From the NCBI GenBank assembly GCA_026710625.1, contig JAPOQQ010000029.1, forward strand, positions 1 through 33,688: 33,688 nucleotides of DNA, in the 5' to 3' direction. Shown piece after piece: positions 204 to 33,338 of the stretch. Source of the DNA: Candidatus Dadabacteria bacterium (GTDB lineage Bacteria; Desulfobacterota_D; UBA1144; Nemesobacterales; Nemesobacteraceae). The notes under the pieces were generated by a model. The model made no database searches. It saw nothing but the letters and a program-made list of their open reading frames with translations, and was not told the origin of the DNA. Every line of letters begins with the position of its first letter. Positions within the stretch are counted from its first letter, which is position 1. The position numbers and the translations under genes were made by a program.

Positions 204-887
204 ATGTCTGATACTATAATGAAGGCCCAGATCGGAGGGGATATAGCTCATCTCAGAAAACTGAACCCGGATCTTTACGACTCTTGGATGGCTTATCATG
301 ATTCGGTGTTTACCGACGGAGCCCTTAGCGCAAAGGAAAAACAGCTCATCGCGGTAGCAGTAGCGCATATTACGGCTTGTCCCTACTGCATAAGGTCGAG
401 GGTACGCGCCAGCAAAAAAGAAGGAGCTAGCGACCAGGAAATAGTCGAGTCGATATACGTGGGACTTAGGCTCAACATGGGGGCCCCTTTCGCGTTTTCA
501 AGCTTGGCTTTTGAAGCTTGGGACACCCTCGAAAGCGGCATCCCGCTTACCGAGGGGCATTTCTTCAAAAAGGACATAGCGAAGGAAATTGCCAGTTTCA
601 GGGAATGCAGCGGCGATATTTCTCCCCACTTCATGGAGCTTCACAAGAAAATCTTTGCCGACGGAGCTCTCAGCAAAAAAATGAAAAGAGGCATAATAGG
701 TTTTGCCTGCGCTCATGCGACTAAATGTCCTTATTGCATAAGGGGAACCGTGAAGGACGCGCATACCGACGGCGTAACTGCGGAGCAGATGGCTGAGGCC
801 ATAAACGTTGCCATGGTCATGACTGCCGGTTCCTGTTACGCTCACACCAGCATTGCCATGGACACGCTCAAGAGTCTCGAGAAGTAG
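204..887 (+). CDS. Tandem carboxymuconolactone decarboxylase (AhpD-like) protein
   Basis: A 227-residue protein made of two CMD/AhpD-like repeats (about residues 20-105 and 130-220). Each repeat carries a CPYC motif, in the contexts AHITACPYCIRSR and AHATKCPYCIRGT. AhpD-type proteins use a CxxC pair as a thiol peroxidase or disulfide reductase. The usual proton-relay residues are altered in both repeats: the His four residues after the second Cys is Arg in repeat 1 and Thr in repeat 2, and the Glu twelve residues before the first Cys is Gln and Gly. The redox cysteines are kept, so a thiol-redox role is possible, but classical AhpD chemistry is doubtful. A GAGAGG Shine-Dalgarno at 188-193 supports the ATG at 204. 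The gene stands alone and ends at a strong hairpin terminator. The family call is firm; the substrate is unknown. Confidence 0.85.
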   Translation: MSDTIMKAQIGGDIAHLRKLNPDLYDSWMAYHDSVFTDGALSAKEKQLIAVAVAHITACPYCIRSRVRASKKEGASDQEIVESIYVGLRLNMGAPFAFSSLAFEAWDTLESGIPLTEGHFFKKDIAKEIASFRECSGDISPHFMELHKKIFADGALSKKMKRGIIGFACAHATKCPYCIRGTVKDAHTDGVTAEQMAEAINVAMVMTAGSCYAHTSIAMDTLKSLEK

Positions 888-921: not shown

Positions 922-961
922 GCCCTGAATGTTTCACGTGAAACATTCAGGGCTTTTTTTT
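922..961 (+). terminator. Perfect-palindrome terminator built around parS
   Basis: Positions 922-953 form a perfect 32-bp palindrome: GCCCTGAA, then the 16-bp parS core, then TTCAGGGC. Eight Ts follow at 954-961. This is the layout of an intrinsic terminator for the CMD gene, with the parS sequence as the inner stem. Confidence 0.8.
930..945. promoter_or_regulatory. parS: parS centromere site 1 (ParB-binding)
   Basis: The sequence is TGTTTCACGTGAAACA, an exact match to the widely conserved bacterial parS palindrome bound by ParB/Spo0J. The shared palindrome extends two more bases on each side in both copies in this window. Such sites cluster near the replication origin, nucleate ParB sliding clamps and recruit SMC. 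No parB gene lies in the window. Confidence 0.9.
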
Positions 962-1010
962 AGCTCTTTTTCTCTGACCGAATACAGCTTTATATGGTAG
1001 ATTCTCTTTC

Positions 1011-2405
1011 ATGTCGTCACTTGTGCCCGAGCGCGAAAGCACCATAGCCGCCATTTCCACCCCGACTGGAGAGGGAGGAGTGGCCGTAATCCGCATAAGT
1101 GGCGGTGAATCTCACTCGATTGCGAGGAAAATTTTCGTTCCCGCGGGAAAATCGGGTTTTTCCGAAAGAAAACTCTGTTTCGGGAAGATAATCGACCCCG
1201 AAACAGGCGGAACGGTGGATGAAGTCCTGTGCGTTGTTATGAGTTCCCCCGATACTTATACGGGGGAGGACATAGCCGAGATACACTCTCACGGGGGACA
1301 TATGGTTCCCCGGAAGATCCTTGAGATTCTGATCGGTTTCGGGGCGACCCTCGCTGCTCCAGGCGAGTTTACCCAGAGGGCGTTTCTTAACGGGAAAATG
1401 GACTTGGCGCAGGCCGAGGCGGTTTCCGACATTATAAGCGCCCAGACCGAACAGAGCCTCCGTTACGCCGAGGCCCAGCTTGAAGGGACCCTTTCGGGCA
1501 AGGTTAACGAACTTAAGGATCAAATTCTTGACGTTCTGGCGGAAATAGAGGCGAATCTCGATTTTCCCGAGGAAGATATAGACCCCATTGCGAAAAACCG
1601 CCTCAAGGAAACGTCTGGATCCGTGGAAAAAGAACTTTCGGCGCTCATCGATAGCTACGACACGGGCAGAATGTTCAGAGACGGGGTGACGATGGTAATA
1701 CTAGGCAAGCCTAACGTCGGGAAATCGAGCATACTTAACTGCCTGCTTGAGACTCAGAGGGCTATAGTGAGCCCGATAGCCGGAACCACGAGGGATTTTA
1801 TCGAAGAGAAAATAAATGTCGGGGGAATTCCCCTCGTTATAACGGATACGGCCGGCATAAGGGACACGGAGGACCGCATAGAAAGGCTCGGGGTGGATCT
1901 TTCCCTGAAAAAAGCCGAGGAATCCGAGTTCGTGCTCGTCATTTTGGACCAGAGCACGGAATTTGATGCCCTGGACAGAAAAATCCTCAAGACCGCCGCC
2001 AAAAAGAAGCATCTTGTCGTAATCAACAAGATGGATCTTGAGGAAAAGCTAGAAAGATCAAAGCTTCAACGGATTCTCGGGCAAAAAAAGCCGGTTGAAA
2101 CCTCGGCGCTTGCAAAAGAGGGGATAGGGCGGCTCAGGCAGGCCATGTTCGAGACCCTTGCGGGCTCGCCTCATGCCTCAGATGCCTCGGAGCTAGTGCT
2201 TACAAACCTTCGCCACAAAAAATCCATGGAGAAGGCCCGCGACCAGTTGCGCATGTTCCTCGAGCTTCTTGAGCGGAACGAGTATCCGGAGATCCTCTCG
2301 ATAGAATTGCGAAACTCAATGAATTCCCTCGGGGAGATTACGGGAGAAGTGACCACGGAAGATCTTCTGGGCAGAATTTTCTCCAGATTCTGCATTGGAA
2401 AGTAA
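1011..2405 (+). CDS. mnmE: tRNA uridine-5-carboxymethylaminomethyl(34) GTPase MnmE
   Basis: MnmE (TrmE), with MnmG, installs the 5-carboxymethylaminomethyl group on wobble uridine 34 of certain tRNAs. The 464-residue length is normal. The N-terminal folate-binding domain begins TIAAISTPTGEGGVAVIRIS. The embedded G domain has GKPNVGKS at 232-239 (P-loop), DTAG at 279-282 and NKMD at 339-342. The protein ends in CIGK, the invariant C-terminal Cys motif needed for modification. The ATG at 1011 fits the family start, but no Shine-Dalgarno is visible. A TATATGGT stretch at 991-998 could be a -10 element giving a very short leader. The gene is flanked on both sides by perfect parS sites; mnmE is commonly close to oriC. 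mnmG, rsmG, parA and parB are not adjacent here. Confidence 0.97.
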   Translation: MSSLVPERESTIAAISTPTGEGGVAVIRISGGESHSIARKIFVPAGKSGFSERKLCFGKIIDPETGGTVDEVLCVVMSSPDTYTGEDIAEIHSHGGHMVPRKILEILIGFGATLAAPGEFTQRAFLNGKMDLAQAEAVSDIISAQTEQSLRYAEAQLEGTLSGKVNELKDQILDVLAEIEANLDFPEEDIDPIAKNRLKETSGSVEKELSALIDSYDTGRMFRDGVTMVILGKPNVGKSSILNCLLETQRAIVSPIAGTTRDFIEEKINVGGIPLVITDTAGIRDTEDRIERLGVDLSLKKAEESEFVLVILDQSTEFDALDRKILKTAAKKKHLVVINKMDLEEKLERSKLQRILGQKKPVETSALAKEGIGRLRQAMFETLAGSPHASDASELVLTNLRHKKSMEKARDQLRMFLELLERNEYPEILSIELRNSMNSLGEITGEVTTEDLLGRIFSRFCIGK

Positions 2406-2418
2406 AAGCGGGACGGAA

Positions 2419-2434
2419 TGTTTCACGTGAAACA
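2419..2434. promoter_or_regulatory. parS: parS centromere site 2 (ParB-binding)
   Basis: A second exact TGTTTCACGTGAAACA lies 13 bp after the mnmE stop. The perfect palindrome extends to AATGTTTCACGTGAAACATT (2417-2436), identical to the core of site 1. Here there is no GC clamp and no T-run, so this copy is not a terminator. Confidence 0.9.
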
Positions 2435-2866
2435 TTTCACAGAGGGCTTGGAGGAGCAAGAAGAAGAAAACGGATCGTTTTTAAAATTATTCAGTGATTT
2501 AAGGTGATTAGAATACAGTCTGCGGAGTTCGGAAAATTCCATTCACAATCTATCGACAAGAAAAAAGTGTTTCATATCAGTGAATTAAGGAATTTCAAAC
2601 GAATTCTTAATGATTTGTTAACAGTTAGAAAGCTCTCCTGGGAATTTTACGTGCGGACGTGCTTCTTTACCTGCCTCGGAACTCGTGTTTTCTCTCTTCG
2701 GCCGGTTAAAATGCCCGCCCGTTCGCGGGGCCGGTTCCGTGGCGGCCCGGATTTGGTCATGGTTGTTTGGGGATTATTTTTAATTTCTTAAATAATCTTT
2801 TGTTTTCAGCGGGTTAACTGTTGACCAGTTTTTTATACCGTGTAACCTAACTCGCCGGGTGAACTT
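2435..2866. other. 432-bp intergenic region between parS 2 and pheT
   Basis: No convincing gene. The first 200 bp are AT-rich (for example 2479-2515 and 2581-2632), then a GC-rich stretch (2700-2755), then AT-rich again (2765-2835). An open frame at 2504-2791 has no Shine-Dalgarno and an unlikely composition. A possible promoter for pheT is TTGACC at 2821-2826 with TAACCT at 2843-2848 (16-bp spacer). I looked for DnaA boxes (TTATNCACA) on both strands; the best candidates (2539-2547, 2487-2495) each have two mismatches, so an origin is not supported here. Confidence 0.5.
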
Positions 2867-5281
2867 ATGATTTTTCCTCTTGGATGGCTTACCGACTACC
2901 TCAAAATCGACGTTTCTCCAGAAGAACTGGGGGAAATGCTCACCATGGCGGGCCTGGAGCTTGAAGCCCTTGAAGACAAGGGCAAGGCTCTTGCTGATGT
3001 CTGTGTTGCCCAGATAAGCAGCATCGAAAAGCATCCGAACGCCGACAGGCTGAGCATCTGCGAGATTACGGACGGAGAAACCCCCTACATGGTTGTCTGC
3101 GGTGCGGACAACATGAAAAAGGGGGACAAGGTCGCTTTCGCCAAGGCTGGAACCGTTCTTCCCGCTACATTGAAGTTTCCGGAAGGCCTCAGGATAAAAC
3201 GCTCCAAGATCCGTGGAGAGAATTCCGAGGGAATGCTGTGTTCTGCGGATGAAATGGGCCTCTCGGGCGACGAAGACGGGATAATGATTCTTTCCCCCAA
3301 GGCCGAGCTTGGAACCAGCATGAACGAGCAGATCGGCTACGATGGTGTTATCTTCGAGGTAGGAATTACCCCTAACCGTCCTGACTGCATGAGTATTTTC
3401 GGGATCGCGAGAGAAGTCTCGGCAATACTGGGCGAGAACCTTCAGAAACCGGTTTTTTCCTTAAAAGAGCAGGGGGAAACCATTTCGGAAAAGGCTGCTG
3501 TAGATGTCGAGGACACAGAGTCATGCCCCAGATACTGCTGCCGGCTCATCGAAGGAGTCAGAATCGGCCCTTCTCCCGCATGGCTTCAGGAGAGGCTCGA
3601 GTACTGCGGAATCCGCTCAGTTAACAATGTCGTTGACGTTACGAACTTCGTTTTGCTTGAGCAGGGACAGCCGCTTCACGCTTTTGATTACGACAAGCTT
3701 GATCAGGGCCGGATTTCCGTCAGAAAAGCCAGGGACGGAGAGATGATAGAAACCCTTGACGAGGTCGAAAGAAAACTACTTGCCGAGGATCTGGTTATCT
3801 GCAGCGGGGATCGACCCGTCGCACTTGCCGGAGTCATGGGCGGATCCGGCACCGAAATAGAGGACGCAACGAGCAATGTTCTGCTTGAGGCCGCTTACTT
3901 TTCTCCAATTGGAATAAGGAAAACGTCCAAGCGAACCGGCCTCAAGAGCGAATCTTCAAGCAGGTTTGAAAAAGGCATCGACATAAACAACGTTTCGTTC
4001 GCGCTTGACCGTGCCACCGAGCTTATAAGCCGCTTATCCGGAGGAACAGTCGCCAAGGGTCTTATCGACGTGTATCCCGACCCGGTGATCCCAAAGGAAA
4101 TATCCCTTTCAGTCGACAAGGTCTGCAACCTGGTCGGCATATCCACCGATTCCCAGGAGATAGCGGAACTTCTCGAGAGTCTTGGGTTTGAGGTTCTAAG
4201 CATCTCGGCCGGGGAGCTTTTGCTTCGGGCTCCGACTTTCAGGGTGGACATAGAGCGCGAGGTGGATATAGTCGAAGAAGTCGCCCGTCTTCTGGGTTAC
4301 GACAACATTCCCTCAGTCCTGCCGGAGGTTCCCATGGTGGCCAGAAAAACCAACGTGATAACCGTCATGGAGAAAAGGCTCAGGGACATTTTCGTCTCCT
4401 ACGGTTTTCTTGAGGCTATAAACTACAGTTTTGAGTCTCCCGAACTTCTCAGGACGTTCGGTTTTGAGGAGTCGATCCGCATTATGAACCCGATATCGAG
4501 GGAGCTTTCGGAAATGAGGATGAGCATTCTTCCCTCCTTGGTGAAAAACGTGAGATTCAACCTCTCAAGGCAGAACCAGGACGTAAGACTTTTCGAGTCC
4601 GCAAAGGTTTTTTACCCCAAGGACATGGACCAGTTGCCAAACGAAGTGAAGAAGTTCGCCGCGATTGCGACCGGAAAAAGGGCGCCTGAGATATGGGACG
4701 GGGAGAAATTCGACTTCTTCGACATAAAAAGCGTGCTTGAAAGAAGCCTGGAGGTTCTTTCGGTGGATTCAAGGATAGATTTTGAGTCCGTTTCCCCCGA
4801 TCATGGATTCCTTTGGCCCGGAAAATCTTCCGCTGTCCTGGTTGACGGAAACGTTCTGGGGATGGTAGGGGAGCTTCATCCCCATCTTCTGGAAAAACTC
4901 GAGATAAGCGAAAGCGTGTACGTACTTGAACTTGACCTATCACTTCTCTCGGTCGTCTACACGAGTTTCGAGAGGAAGTTCTCCCCCCTTCCCAAATTCC
5001 CTTCTCTGCGTCGCGACATAGCGCTTGTGGTCGATGATGCGGTTCCGGTACGGGAAATTCTTTCGGTTATAAAAAAGGCGGATTCCGGTATAATAGAAAA
5101 CGCTTGGGTGTTTGACGTTTATAAGGGAGATTCCCTCGAGGAAGGAAAAAAGAGCGTTGCGCTTTCCCTTATTCTTCGAAACAGGGAAAAAACCCTTACC
5201 GACGAGGATGCGAACAGGGTTCAGCAGGATGTTCTTAAGAATTTGGAAAAAACAATAGGGGCCGAATTGCGTTCGATTTAA
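2867..5281 (+). CDS. pheT: Phenylalanine--tRNA ligase beta subunit
   Basis: The beta subunit of the alpha2-beta2 PheRS, which carries the tRNA-binding and editing domains. It has 804 residues, the usual size. The start MIFPLGWLTDYLKID is typical. An EMAP-like tRNA-binding OB domain follows (about 40-150, with HPNADRLSIC), then B3/B4 editing (about 210-385), B5 (about 405-470), a catalytic-like core, and the C-terminal ferredoxin-fold anticodon-binding domain (about 705-800, with KFPSLRRDIALVVDD). No pheS sits upstream, where it is found in most bacteria; a 432-bp non-coding region with a parS site is there instead. ihfA follows 15 bp after the stop, the same pheT-ihfA order known from proteobacteria. 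Confidence 0.97.
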   Translation: MIFPLGWLTDYLKIDVSPEELGEMLTMAGLELEALEDKGKALADVCVAQISSIEKHPNADRLSICEITDGETPYMVVCGADNMKKGDKVAFAKAGTVLPATLKFPEGLRIKRSKIRGENSEGMLCSADEMGLSGDEDGIMILSPKAELGTSMNEQIGYDGVIFEVGITPNRPDCMSIFGIAREVSAILGENLQKPVFSLKEQGETISEKAAVDVEDTESCPRYCCRLIEGVRIGPSPAWLQERLEYCGIRSVNNVVDVTNFVLLEQGQPLHAFDYDKLDQGRISVRKARDGEMIETLDEVERKLLAEDLVICSGDRPVALAGVMGGSGTEIEDATSNVLLEAAYFSPIGIRKTSKRTGLKSESSSRFEKGIDINNVSFALDRATELISRLSGGTVAKGLIDVYPDPVIPKEISLSVDKVCNLVGISTDSQEIAELLESLGFEVLSISAGELLLRAPTFRVDIEREVDIVEEVARLLGYDNIPSVLPEVPMVARKTNVITVMEKRLRDIFVSYGFLEAINYSFESPELLRTFGFEESIRIMNPISRELSEMRMSILPSLVKNVRFNLSRQNQDVRLFESAKVFYPKDMDQLPNEVKKFAAIATGKRAPEIWDGEKFDFFDIKSVLERSLEVLSVDSRIDFESVSPDHGFLWPGKSSAVLVDGNVLGMVGELHPHLLEKLEISESVYVLELDLSLLSVVYTSFERKFSPLPKFPSLRRDIALVVDDAVPVREILSVIKKADSGIIENAWVFDVYKGDSLEEGKKSVALSLILRNREKTLTDEDANRVQQDVLKNLEKTIGAELRSI

Positions 5282-7644: not shown

Positions 7645-8585
7645 GATCTTTCCCCGAGTCCGCTTTCGGCCACATAACACGCTCCCAGCACCCCCGCATC
7701 GTCTCCCAGGTCGGCTCTTTTTATCTGAAGCCCCCTTTGCGCTCCCCCAAGGCACCTTCTTTCGGCTTCCTCAAGGGCTTTTCCGATAAAAAGTTCCCAG
7801 GCCCCCGAAAGTCCCCCGCCTACCACCACCGTCTTTACGTCGAGAACGTTTACAAGAATGGATATTCCCACCCCCAGGCTTGCCCCGAAGTCGTTCCATA
7901 CCGAGATGGCTGCCCGGTCTTTTTCCCGCGCAAGCTCTGCCAGGCGCTCAGGGAGGGCCGATTCTTCGGTACCGGCGAGCTTTTCACGGAGCTGCGGGTG
8001 CTCGCGGACGATTCTCTTTATCGCTACCTGCGAAACGTAGGTTTCAATGCAGCCTCTCCCACCGCAGGCACAAGGAGGTCCCGACGGGTTAATCGTCATG
8101 TGCCCCACTTCTCCGGCGAAGCCGTCTTCCCCCGTCCAGAGCTCGCCGTTGAGGATTATTCCGCCCCCGAATCCGGTCCCCAGGGTTATCATTACCATCG
8201 AGTCCGAGCCTCTGCCCGCCCCCGCACGGTATTCTCCGAGGGCCGCGCAGGAAGCGTCGTTTTCTATAAAAACAGGCGTTGCAGCTTCAATTTTCTCCGA
8301 AATGACTTCTGCAAACGGGAAATCTCTGGTGTTGGCTATGTTGGGGGCCTGGACGAGAATGCCGCTTGCGCGGTCAACGGTTCCCGGTATTCCTATGCCG
8401 ATTGCAGATACCCCCTCCCCGGCGAATCCTTTTATGAAGCCGACGAGGTTCTCCATGAGCCGGGAGATGCCCATGCGGGCGTCCGAGCGCGTTTTTCTCT
8501 CCCCGAGCATTTCTCCCTCCTCGGAGAGGATTTTTCCCCTGATGTTGGTTCCCCCTATGTCTATGCCAAGGAATTTCCGCTTCAT
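7641..8585 (-). CDS. ROK family sugar kinase (glucokinase-like)
   Basis: A 314-residue ROK kinase. The N-terminal LGIDIGGTNIRG is the ATP phosphate-binding motif. ENDASCAALGEY carries the catalytic Asp, GTGFGGGI is the second ATP motif, and CACGGRGCIETY is the ROK zinc-binding cysteine cluster. Members phosphorylate glucose, N-acetylmannosamine or related sugars; the substrate cannot be fixed from sequence, but glucokinase is most likely. The ATG at 8585 is chosen because it starts directly before KRKFLGIDIGG and has AGACGG upstream. A TTG seven codons earlier (8606) is possible but has no Shine-Dalgarno. The gene is convergent with tilS and stands alone on this strand. Confidence 0.93.
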   Translation of the reverse strand: MKRKFLGIDIGGTNIRGKILSEEGEMLGERKTRSDARMGISRLMENLVGFIKGFAGEGVSAIGIGIPGTVDRASGILVQAPNIANTRDFPFAEVISEKIEAATPVFIENDASCAALGEYRAGAGRGSDSMVMITLGTGFGGGIILNGELWTGEDGFAGEVGHMTINPSGPPCACGGRGCIETYVSQVAIKRIVREHPQLREKLAGTEESALPERLAELAREKDRAAISVWNDFGASLGVGISILVNVLDVKTVVVGGGLSGAWELFIGKALEEAERRCLGGAQRGLQIKRADLGDDAGVLGACYVAESGLGERS

Positions 8586-8821: not shown

Positions 8822-10120
8822 ATGAACCAAAGAACCGCAGCTGTCCTGTCAGCCGTTTTCCTGCTCTTTCTCTACCTTTCCTGCGAGAGACCCCCGGAGG
8901 TTCCGGGCCCCGAGTCCATGCGGGCGGTTCCCGCATTCCCCGAGATGGATGATGACCTTTTCCCCGAGGGGCTAAAGGAATCTATCGGCGCAAGCGTCGA
9001 GAAACTTTCACAGAAAAAAGATTCCCAGCTCGTTTTCGGACAGAAAACCGTCTCCGCGGGGGACTACGCCCTGGCGCTAGGCTATCTTCTCGCCAAGCTT
9101 GAAGCGGGCGTTACCAAGGATGATTTCATAAAGGACGTAAGGGAGAATTTCGATTTCTACGGCTTTCCGGGAAAACCCTGGGGCAAGGTTTTTATAACCT
9201 CTTACTTTTCCCCAGTGCTTTCCGCCTCCCGGGCCAGGACGCCGCGGCACACCCAGCCGCTCTACGGGGTTCCCGGCGATCTGGTGCGCCTGGGGATAGA
9301 CAGGTTCGTCGAGCGGTTCGAGAGATTTTCGTTTCTTGAGGACGACAAGATCGCCCGGGGAAAGTTCCAGTCCCTTCACGGCAGGGTCGCCCCCGGAGGC
9401 CTTGGCAGAACATCCGAACTGGTTCCCTATTACTCACGAAGCGAGATAGACTCCGGGGGAAGGCTCCGGGGGAAAAGGCTCGAGATCGCGTGGGTAGACC
9501 CTATCGACGGGTTTTTTCTTCAGATCCAGGGCTCGGGTAAAATAAGGTTCGCGGACGGAGAGGAGCGGGTTGTGGGCTACGCCGCCCAGAACGGACACGA
9601 TTATGTGGCAATAGGGAAATTTCTCTTCGAGTGGATTCCGAAGGAAAAAATGAGCCTTTGGGCCATAGAAAGCCACTTAAGATCCCTCTCCTACGCGGAG
9701 AGGATGAATATCCTTTACAAAAACCCGAGTTATATTTTCTTCCGCGGACTTCCGGGCAAACCACAGACCTCTTTCGGAACGGAAGTAGTTGATGGCAGGA
9801 CCATAGCGACCGACAAGGCTTTTTTCCCCAGGGGGGCCTTGGCGTTCATGGAATTTGAGAGACCGGTTTTCGAAACTCCCTCTTCGGTCGAGCCGTCGCA
9901 ATGGAAGCCGGTTTCCCGCTTTGTCGTTAACCACGACAGCGGGGGAGCTATAAAAGGGGCCCGGCGCGTCGACCTTTTCTGGGGGGAGGGAAAGGAAGCC
10001 TCCCAGCACGCGGGTGTAATGAAAAACTGGGGGAAATTCTTCTACCTGGTGCCGAAGGGGGAATTCCTCACGGTGCTTAGGGAAAAAAAACAGCAAGCGG
10101 GACACTGGAGGATGAGATGA
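8822..10120 (+). CDS. mltA: MltA-type membrane-bound lytic murein transglycosylase
   Basis: MltA cleaves the MurNAc-GlcNAc bond of peptidoglycan, forming 1,6-anhydro ends, and works on the inner face of the outer membrane. This 432-residue form starts with a hydrophobic export signal ending LYLSC; the Cys would be lipidated, although the -3 Tyr makes the lipobox imperfect. The MltA domain carries the hallmark LQIQGSGKIRF. The C-terminal 3D domain has the expected Asp-bearing stretches (TIATDKAFFPRGALA, NHDSGGAIKGARRVDLFWG). The ATG at 8822 has CAGGT upstream; an in-frame TTG at 8801 is the alternative start. The stop overlaps the next start (ATGA), indicating a two-gene operon. Confidence 0.93.
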   Translation: MNQRTAAVLSAVFLLFLYLSCERPPEVPGPESMRAVPAFPEMDDDLFPEGLKESIGASVEKLSQKKDSQLVFGQKTVSAGDYALALGYLLAKLEAGVTKDDFIKDVRENFDFYGFPGKPWGKVFITSYFSPVLSASRARTPRHTQPLYGVPGDLVRLGIDRFVERFERFSFLEDDKIARGKFQSLHGRVAPGGLGRTSELVPYYSRSEIDSGGRLRGKRLEIAWVDPIDGFFLQIQGSGKIRFADGEERVVGYAAQNGHDYVAIGKFLFEWIPKEKMSLWAIESHLRSLSYAERMNILYKNPSYIFFRGLPGKPQTSFGTEVVDGRTIATDKAFFPRGALAFMEFERPVFETPSSVEPSQWKPVSRFVVNHDSGGAIKGARRVDLFWGEGKEASQHAGVMKNWGKFFYLVPKGEFLTVLREKKQQAGHWRMR

Positions 10121-31386: not shown

Positions 31387-32268
31387 TTATTTTCTTAAAC
31401 CTAGGACACGTAGCCAGGCATCTACCTGTCCGAAAGCGTCCTGCTGCCATTGGTCTGGAGTTCGATCTTCCAAAATTGGGCTATCTTTGACAAAATTGCG
31501 CACTGAGGTTGGACCAAGACTGTCTACAGTCTCGAATTTCTCATTGATATACTTGTAACCGATGATGCTGTCTTCATGCTCAAGCATCGGGCGACAGGCT
31601 TTAGCTAGTGCTTCAGGGCCACCCGGAAAATTGCGGACACAGTAATAAATGTCGTAGGCATCTTTTTGCTTGAGCCGTCTATCAATAGCGAAGCCCTTCA
31701 TTGCAAGCAATGCGGGAATTGACGCAACGGCAATCCTGACTCTATTGATCCCGCCTTCGGGCATCGGACCATCAATCTGGATTATTTCGTAGGATTGCAG
31801 GGCGAGTTCGGCTCCATCGGCGCGAATGACGGCAAATTTATCAATAATCGGCGGACGGTTTTTTGCGATTTTGGCTCGCCGTGGCATAAGGAAATCAACC
31901 ACTACATCAATTGGTGGACCGCCGTCCGTTGCTGGTACTGAGCGCACAAGCTGAAAGTTTTCCCGGTTTCTTGCTTGGTAGTAGCCATGCTCCATTAACG
32001 TGATGACGAGATTTGCGTATTCGCCATCGCCGAGTGCTTCAGGATCGAGATCGAGGTCAATATCAATTGTCCCCACATGTTGCATGTCGTCATTATCGAG
32101 TAGCAGCCAAGGAACGGCACCGCCTACGACGGCGAACTTGCCTCTGAAGCTGCCGAGAATTTGACCAATTTCAATGAGAACAGACTTTACCGCTTCCGTT
32201 GAACGATTATCATAATCCGCTGCCGATTGCGGTTCACTCCTGTTGTTTCTATTGTCCATTAGTGCCAT
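31387..32268 (-). CDS. AbiEii-like nucleotidyltransferase toxin (type IV toxin-antitoxin)
   Basis: A 293-residue protein of the AbiEii/AbiGii group. The nucleotidyltransferase core is visible: AVVGGAVPWLLL (Gly49-Gly50), then TIDIDLDLD with Asp69 and Asp71 as metal ligands, then IDVVVDFL (120-127) with a third carboxylate. The helix motif RRLKQKDAYDIYY (Lys202, Asp203, Asp206) is typical of the toxin family. In described systems these enzymes arrest growth, in some cases by modifying tRNA, and can abort phage infection. The ATG at 32268 overlaps the antitoxin stop by ten bases, and AAGGAG lies 12 bases upstream; a second ATG at 32259 would give a TAATG junction. It follows the antitoxin gene in one operon. 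Confidence 0.82.
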   Translation of the reverse strand: MALMDNRNNRSEPQSAADYDNRSTEAVKSVLIEIGQILGSFRGKFAVVGGAVPWLLLDNDDMQHVGTIDIDLDLDPEALGDGEYANLVITLMEHGYYQARNRENFQLVRSVPATDGGPPIDVVVDFLMPRRAKIAKNRPPIIDKFAVIRADGAELALQSYEIIQIDGPMPEGGINRVRIAVASIPALLAMKGFAIDRRLKQKDAYDIYYCVRNFPGGPEALAKACRPMLEHEDSIIGYKYINEKFETVDSLGPTSVRNFVKDSPILEDRTPDQWQQDAFGQVDAWLRVLGLRK

Positions 32269-33338
32269 ACCAACATTTTTCTCCTTAAATAGTCAGCTGA
32301 TTCCGCTCCTCGTTCCCCTGCGATCGAAAGGTCGAGATAAGTCTGGACCGGACTCGTGCAGATCACGCCGGGTACCGGTTCAACGGTGTCCTCAAGTATG
32401 TTTTGGTCCTTAAGAATAAGGATTTCGACATTGTTGCCCCTGTTGACGTTTGATGCTTTCAATGCGTTGGCGATTTTCTCCGCACCCTCTTTGTTGGCGT
32501 AGAAATAGTCGATACCTGTTCTACCATAAGGCGCGATCCAGCGTGCAGCTGAAAATGATGCGAAGGTTGCCAGATTCTGGAAAGAGTGTGAAGACAAAAT
32601 ATCTTTAACGGCTTCTTCAAGAGCCTGTCCATAAAGGCTGGTGTAAATTCTGATCAAATTACCGTCTGGGCGGCGGTATGCGCTGCGCCAGGCATCAAGC
32701 AACCCATCTGGATCGGTGAGAGTGACACCGTCACTTATATCCTTTGCCCATTCCCGATTCAGTAAGGCTTTGCGGACATTGCTGACATGGCCAAAGCTTG
32801 CATTGGCCGCATTGGCTAGTTCCGTGACGCGCCAGGCTCGCTTCGGATTGCGTAGCATGATACGCAGGATATGTGCTGCTTTCGGGCGAAACAGCGATTT
32901 CAAATTTCTTTTTTCCGCGACAGGTCTGTCTGCCACGCTCACATCGATCAAAATGCCGGGTGCTTGAAAAAGAGCATTACCATATAGATCAAGATAGTTA
33001 ACATTATAGTCGACGCAGATTGCTCGAGATTTTTCCGACAGAAAAGGAGCAATGAGTACCGGCACCGCACTGAAGTTCATGCGCCCTACAGAATCGCGAA
33101 GTTGCAGTACTGCATTGCGAACGTGACGAGGTTGTCCATTGTGCTTAACTTCACAAACCAGCGTGTGACGGTGGCCGAATGCGTTGATTGATACAAGTAT
33201 GTCAGCCCTGCGGCCATCTGCTACATGTGGTTCAAACTCAATCTTTTCGACTTCGATTTGAAGCTTGCTGTCAAACAGTCTCCGCAGGGCTTCTCCAGCG
33301 CGCATTTCCAGTTCTTTTCCTGATTGGTGTAATTTCAT
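32259..33338 (-). CDS. AbiEi-like antitoxin/regulator with a PD-(D/E)XK-like N-terminal domain
   Basis: A 359-residue protein of the AbiEi antitoxin group. Residues 1-145 resemble a restriction-endonuclease fold, with Asp46 (RRADILVSI) and Glu63-Val-Lys65 (LVCEVKHNG) in PD-(D/E)XK spacing, then VNYLDLYGNALFQAPG. A winged-helix DNA-binding part follows (about 150-215, WRVTELANAANASFGHVSNVRKAL). The C-terminal antitoxin domain ends with PVQTYLDLSIAGERGAESADYL, which is characteristic of AbiEi proteins. It lies directly upstream of the toxin with overlapping ends. A promoter inside a large inverted repeat precedes the gene, and AbiEi proteins are known to repress their own operon. An ATG at 33305 with GGAAAAG upstream is an alternative start. 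Confidence 0.82.
   Translation of the reverse strand: MKLHQSGKELEMRAGEALRRLFDSKLQIEVEKIEFEPHVADGRRADILVSINAFGHRHTLVCEVKHNGQPRHVRNAVLQLRDSVGRMNFSAVPVLIAPFLSEKSRAICVDYNVNYLDLYGNALFQAPGILIDVSVADRPVAEKRNLKSLFRPKAAHILRIMLRNPKRAWRVTELANAANASFGHVSNVRKALLNREWAKDISDGVTLTDPDGLLDAWRSAYRRPDGNLIRIYTSLYGQALEEAVKDILSSHSFQNLATFASFSAARWIAPYGRTGIDYFYANKEGAEKIANALKASNVNRGNNVEILILKDQNILEDTVEPVPGVICTSPVQTYLDLSIAGERGAESADYLRRKMLVWH

Follow-up and report, generated by a model that had tools for sequence, protein, structure and literature searches.

A parS pair around mnmE in Candidatus Dadabacteria: a probable chromosomal centromere, with one site also a likely intrinsic terminator and the other beside candidate DnaA boxes

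Introduction

Replication initiators are described as binding at a centromere in Caulobacter and on Vibrio chromosome II (PMC6399470), and in Caulobacter crescentus the centromere contains DnaA boxes and DnaA acts there (Mera et al. 2014, as related in PMC6399470). In Escherichia coli, datA and DARS2 are loci outside the origin that combine DnaA boxes with an IHF site, according to PMC10950094 and PMC4245941. The literature searched contained no earlier account of a Dadabacteria centromere or of a parS site doubling as a terminator, which is weak evidence of novelty.

Here we explore a 33,688-nt stretch of DNA (hereafter the window) from a draft genome of this group. An earlier note, made from the window, described two perfect parS sites around mnmE and took the window to lie probably in an origin-proximal centromere region. 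Our main reading, to which we give a probability of about 0.78, is that the pair is a chromosomal parS centromere whose first site doubles as the intrinsic terminator of an AhpD-like gene. Coupling to DnaA at the element that begins with the second site is proposed more cautiously, at just short of an even chance.

Sequences and searches

The draft genome of the window amounts to 1.83 Mb in 174 contigs and is 93% complete. Matches to the parS 16-mer were sought in the window, where shuffled sequence gave a mean of 0.12 matches at three mismatches or fewer, and in the genome as a whole. Of the relatives, the same-genus Candidatus Dadabacteria genome G006 (OX638332.1) is a single closed chromosome of 1,590,246 bp. 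Families are designated by f numbers. Coordinates of the features discussed are given in Table 1.

Table 1. Features of the mnmE region in window coordinates
Feature	Position	Strand	Basis or remark
AhpD-like gene	204..887	+	ends 34 bases ahead of the terminator stem
Predicted intrinsic terminator: 32-bp palindrome (922-953) around the parS core, T tract after	922..961	+	stem, with compensatory changes, and T tract present across 13 genomes of the genus
parS site 1, TGTTTCACGTGAAACA	930..945	.	exact match
mnmE (tRNA modification GTPase)	1011..2405	+	NF003661, 407.7 bits, cutoff 380
parS site 2, TGTTTCACGTGAAACA	2419..2434	.	exact match
DnaA-box-like CATTTCACA	2433..2441	+	predicted; overlaps parS arm; TCCACA-type box there in other families
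Conserved block ATTCAGTGATTTAAGGTGATTAG, IHF-like	2489..2511	+	predicted
Tandem DnaA-box-like pair CCATTCACAATCTATCGACA	2539..2558	+	predicted; TTATCCACA-ATTCATCCACA at that place in other families
IHF-like site TATCAGTGAATTA	2575..2587	+	predicted; matches WATCARNNNNTTR
pheT, next gene	2867..5281	+	about 2790-2866 before it is a separate conserved block

Results

The parS pair and its ParB

A scan of the window finds TGTTTCACGTGAAACA exactly twice, on either side of mnmE as the earlier note had it, and no third TGTTTCACGTGAAACA-like site at three mismatches or fewer in the 33,688 nt. By a simple count 8e-6 exact matches are expected in the window and 4e-4 in the genome, so the claim that the pair lies far beyond chance stands, as does the claim that both copies share two flanking bases on each side: these are AA...TT, and one G further left is common to both as well. 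Genome-wide the two copies are the only sites at one mismatch or fewer, with a single 2-mismatch site on a different contig; they are thus not scattered, and the closed relative likewise has two. A duplicated segment as the origin of the pair was considered and dropped, no repeat being seen outside parS and its short flank. By itself the parS pair is ordinary.

Neither parA nor parB lies in the window, as had been noted before, both being encoded on another contig, C12. Its ParB, the one above the family cutoff in the genome (E = 1.6e-55), has ParB_N, HTH_ParB and ParB_C domains and a GERRWRA motif, aligns strongly with solved Spo0J/ParB proteins over the N-terminal and HTH domains, and is preceded immediately by a ParA-type ATPase gene. 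A genome devoid of parB, which would speak against the sites being parS, is therefore not what was found, and binding of ParB at both sites is predicted from sequence. Of the 61 genomes searched, 56 contain a protein of this ParB family. In closed G006, parB lies at 618,608 (G006:C1) and parAB is 466 kb from parS on the 1.59-Mb chromosome.

Conservation at mnmE across the class

Searches matched parS at one mismatch or fewer in 42 of 61 genomes, part of these matches being inspected one by one, and in the class nearly every relative whose mnmE could be read carries parS, or a variant of it, at that gene. Within the genus the pair flanks mnmE in the 13 other genomes, save G011, which has lost one site to an insertion, and G008, where the contig ends within mnmE. 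Flanking pairs also occur in f4, f7 and genome G014, a single parS downstream of mnmE in f5, and a single one upstream in f2. Several f3 genomes have one parS downstream of mnmE and a 1-mismatch site 1.7 kb further on, inside a gene that we take, from its sequence, for PabB-like. In f6 a TGTTTCACGG variant is found inside mnmE and also downstream.

The 1-Mb genomes of f8 have a TGTTCCACGTGGAACA-type site inside mnmE (L178-L184). The seven f8 mnmE genes aligned all have an identical core, TTCCACGTGGAA, always written CCA CGT GGA and encoding an f8-specific Pro-Arg-Gly; since the codons are invariant and the tripeptide is confined to f8, this suggests selection on the DNA itself. Absence of parS from the small f8 genomes was accordingly rejected for those read, in view of this TTCCACGTGGAA-core variant, and true absence from G029 and G041 was discounted because no mnmE contig was recovered in either. 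Absences are in any case weak evidence, as the counts come from draft genomes. Outside the class, G060 (L065) has two perfect parS at 7992-8007 and 9889-9904, flanking an mnmG-like gene that stands before an rsmG-like one (gene names given by eye).

Position relative to oriC

Proximity to dnaA and to the GC-skew minimum had been suggested as a check on the centromere proposal, and in closed G006 the parS pair lies near both. The only sites of that chromosome at two mismatches or fewer, at 1,084,318 and 1,085,805, are 22-23 kb from the cumulative GC-skew minimum at 1,107,521, which itself falls 66 bases beyond the end of the dnaA match (1,106,184-1,107,455). The gap between dnaA and dnaN holds a TTTTTCACA box and then ACTACTGTTACTACTAC, in the DnaA-box plus DnaA-trio order of the oriC architecture described in PMC8287927; boxes and trios are present at oriC in G034 and G030 too, and on C68, the dnaA contig of the window's genome. 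In two f5 contigs the skew minimum is inside dnaA and parS is 17-18 kb off; a third f5 contig, without dnaA, is uninformative. Since dnaA of the window's genome is located on a different contig, C68, the distance from the window to oriC is taken from relatives: judged from the orientation of G006, the first base of the window would have oriC about 20 kb to its left, and cumulative GC skew in the window climbs rightward, away from that side, as expected. The origin-proximal placement is thus supported, directly in G006 and by extension for the window.

Site 1 as parS and predicted terminator

Site 1 is the core of a perfect 32-bp palindrome followed by eight T, with a hairpin energy of -24.2 kcal/mol. 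The AhpD-like gene ahead of it is also found upstream in same-genus loci where the contig covers the region; the protein encoded at window 204-887 has two repeated domains, and its best NCBIfam match is the arsenosugar-associated peroxidase-like family. Over 13 same-genus genomes 99.5% of the cells of the stem alignment are paired, and four outer pairs vary, each being changed on both sides. The covariation score was reached by 0 of 500 shuffles, a count that is not a probability because the compared sequences are related and not independent. G-U pairs occur in the stem, which indicates RNA, beyond DNA symmetry alone. Throughout these genomes the inner 16 bases are invariant and variation is restricted to the outer pairs, so that the core appears to have been conserved for its parS identity and the extension for its pairing. 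One sequence thus seems to serve as parS and as terminator, and site 1 is predicted to end transcription. The earlier reading of site 1 as a 16-bp parS was exact in sequence and too short in extent, the site being also the core of the longer terminator palindrome.

That site 1 makes a good terminator by sequence could also be taken to mean that the palindromes are terminators, or the site of another regulator, and not parS. This is very improbable: site 2 retains the same 16-mer but lacks both an extended stem and a T tract, the inner bases of site 1 do not take part in the variation of its outer pairs, and a cognate ParB is present in the genome.

The element at site 2

Site 2 opens an intergenic element of about 170 bp that is conserved across families; the earlier note gave this parS exactly and missed its membership of a conserved DnaA-box element. 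Downstream of mnmE the families have in common parS, a TCCACA..TGTGGATAA pair (f3, f5), the ATTCAATAATTTnAGGnnnTTAG and WTTCARNNNNTTR blocks and, between these, a tandem TTATCCACAATYCATCCACA. The element has perfect TTATCCACA boxes in most f3, f5 and f7 members read, and such boxes occur rarely in the rest of the contigs examined. Of four f3 and f5 contigs, three have 2-4 perfect copies in 79-100 kb, two of which in each case lie within the 200-bp element (both of those in the 79 kb of G016, two of four in the G018 and G030 contigs). In the fourth, G034, the element has near-match boxes and no perfect TTATCCACA. In the window's genus the boxes are drifted (CATTTCACA, CCATTCACA, CTATCGACA) and not canonical TTATCCACA, and the oriC boxes of this genus are also of TTTTCACA type (TTCACA type), these motifs being short and easily found. 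This fits, and does not prove, a joint drift of element and oriC boxes with the specificity of DnaA, whose binding to the element is a prediction from such motifs.

The conserved blocks match the IHF consensus in 18 of 24 sequences in relaxed form and in 8 of 24 in strict form, where about one is expected in shuffles, the consensus being degenerate. An IhfA-like protein is encoded 2.9 kb away, with a score slightly under the NCBIfam cutoff. The element was rejected as oriC, given that skew minimum and DnaA-trios sit at dnaA-dnaN; no DnaA-trio run was seen in the site-2 elements read.

With its candidate DnaA boxes and IHF-like motifs close to oriC though not in it, the element shares its ingredients with datA and DARS2, and might chiefly be a DnaA regulator of that kind, acting on nucleotide state or by titration, with only incidental contact to parS. 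We know of no parS in the datA or DARS2 loci of E. coli. This main rival to a role of DnaA at the centromere could draw on f8, where boxes TTATCAACA..TGTTGATAA adjoin mnmE and the parS-like site is about 420 bp off, inside the gene. We nevertheless regard it as unlikely, because parS directly abuts the first DnaA box in f1, f3, f5 and f7, and because parS and boxes both remain at mnmE class-wide.

Insertions at site 2 and the neighbouring blocks

Six of the 14 genomes of the genus (G001, G004, G008, G011, G012 and G013; loci L080, L218, L219, L222, L223 and L224) have an element with IS1595-like ends placed precisely at the downstream parS. Four insertions are flanked by AAACATTT, or by a sequence one base off, which is the outer parS arm; the flanks resemble an 8-bp duplication and parS is intact, while in G011 the downstream parS is destroyed. 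In G001 and G004 the cargo is an ISXO2-like transposase (PF12762); the other elements have different cargo. Elsewhere in G006, AT-rich sequence and not parS flanks two elements whose ends are related.

With an insertion between site 2 and the DnaA-box block in six genomes, tight coupling is not indispensable there. Such separation could also be expected if the sites were an ordinary parS pair near oriC and nothing more, the adjacent conserved blocks doing something unrelated, for instance in pheT or mnmE expression; the identity of parS requires nothing further, and the block next to pheT is conserved separately. Against this stands the persistence of the element blocks without pheT as neighbour, in G014 (pheT inverted and elsewhere) and in f2, f3 and f7 (another gene after mnmE), as well as the concentration in the f3, f5 and f7 blocks of perfect DnaA boxes that are otherwise rare, so that we consider this alternative rather unlikely, though less so than a datA/DARS-type regulator.

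Elsewhere in the window, an AbiEii-like nucleotidyltransferase gene (PF08843, weak match; 31387-32268, minus strand) overlaps a gene for 359 aa (32259-33338, minus strand), and the two are possibly a type IV toxin-antitoxin pair.

Discussion

If the pair is a chromosomal centromere, ParB from the distant parAB operon would load at both parS and slide over mnmE and its neighbours, as in the known parABS mechanism, and ParA would separate the origin regions by the known logic of these systems. Of the roles considered for the site-2 element we favour one in which DnaA, aided by DNA bending, would bind next to the centromere and so link the state of initiation to segregation, as in Caulobacter. 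The fullest form of this proposal is a composite centromere at mnmE in the Dadabacteria: a single non-oriC element of about 170 bp would be shared by ParB, DnaA and an IHF-like bender, and DnaA would gate the start of segregation, matching on the scale of a class what is described for Caulobacter and Vibrio II, with a further parS kept, in one genus, as centromere and terminator. We hold it tentatively, as somewhat less probable than the DnaA coupling taken alone. If true, a class-wide element of parS and DnaA boxes in uncultured bacteria would suggest either a wide distribution of such coupling or its repeated evolution, and the parS-terminator would show a way to keep a centromere site between expressed genes.

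The locus resembles chromosomal parABS systems (ParA/Soj, ParB/Spo0J, parS) in its perfect consensus parS, canonical ParA and ParB, small number of sites and, in relatives, origin-proximal position. It differs from them in the wide separation of parAB and parS seen in the closed relative, and in that the sites flank mnmE and not the par genes, one of them being also a terminator by sequence. To E. coli datA and DARS2, as described in PMC10950094 and PMC4245941, the site-2 element is likened by its ingredients alone. In rctA/parS2 of Vibrio cholerae chromosome II a centromere site lies inside an initiator-binding locus, as is predicted here, although the initiator there is RctB and not DnaA and the chromosome is a secondary one (PMC6399470). 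The Caulobacter crescentus centromere is likewise a parS region at some distance from the origin, and contains DnaA boxes where the present locus has candidate ones; it belongs to another phylum and, according to PMC6399470, lies 8 kb from the origin, against about 20 kb here, where DnaA binding is predicted and IHF-like motifs stand beside the boxes.
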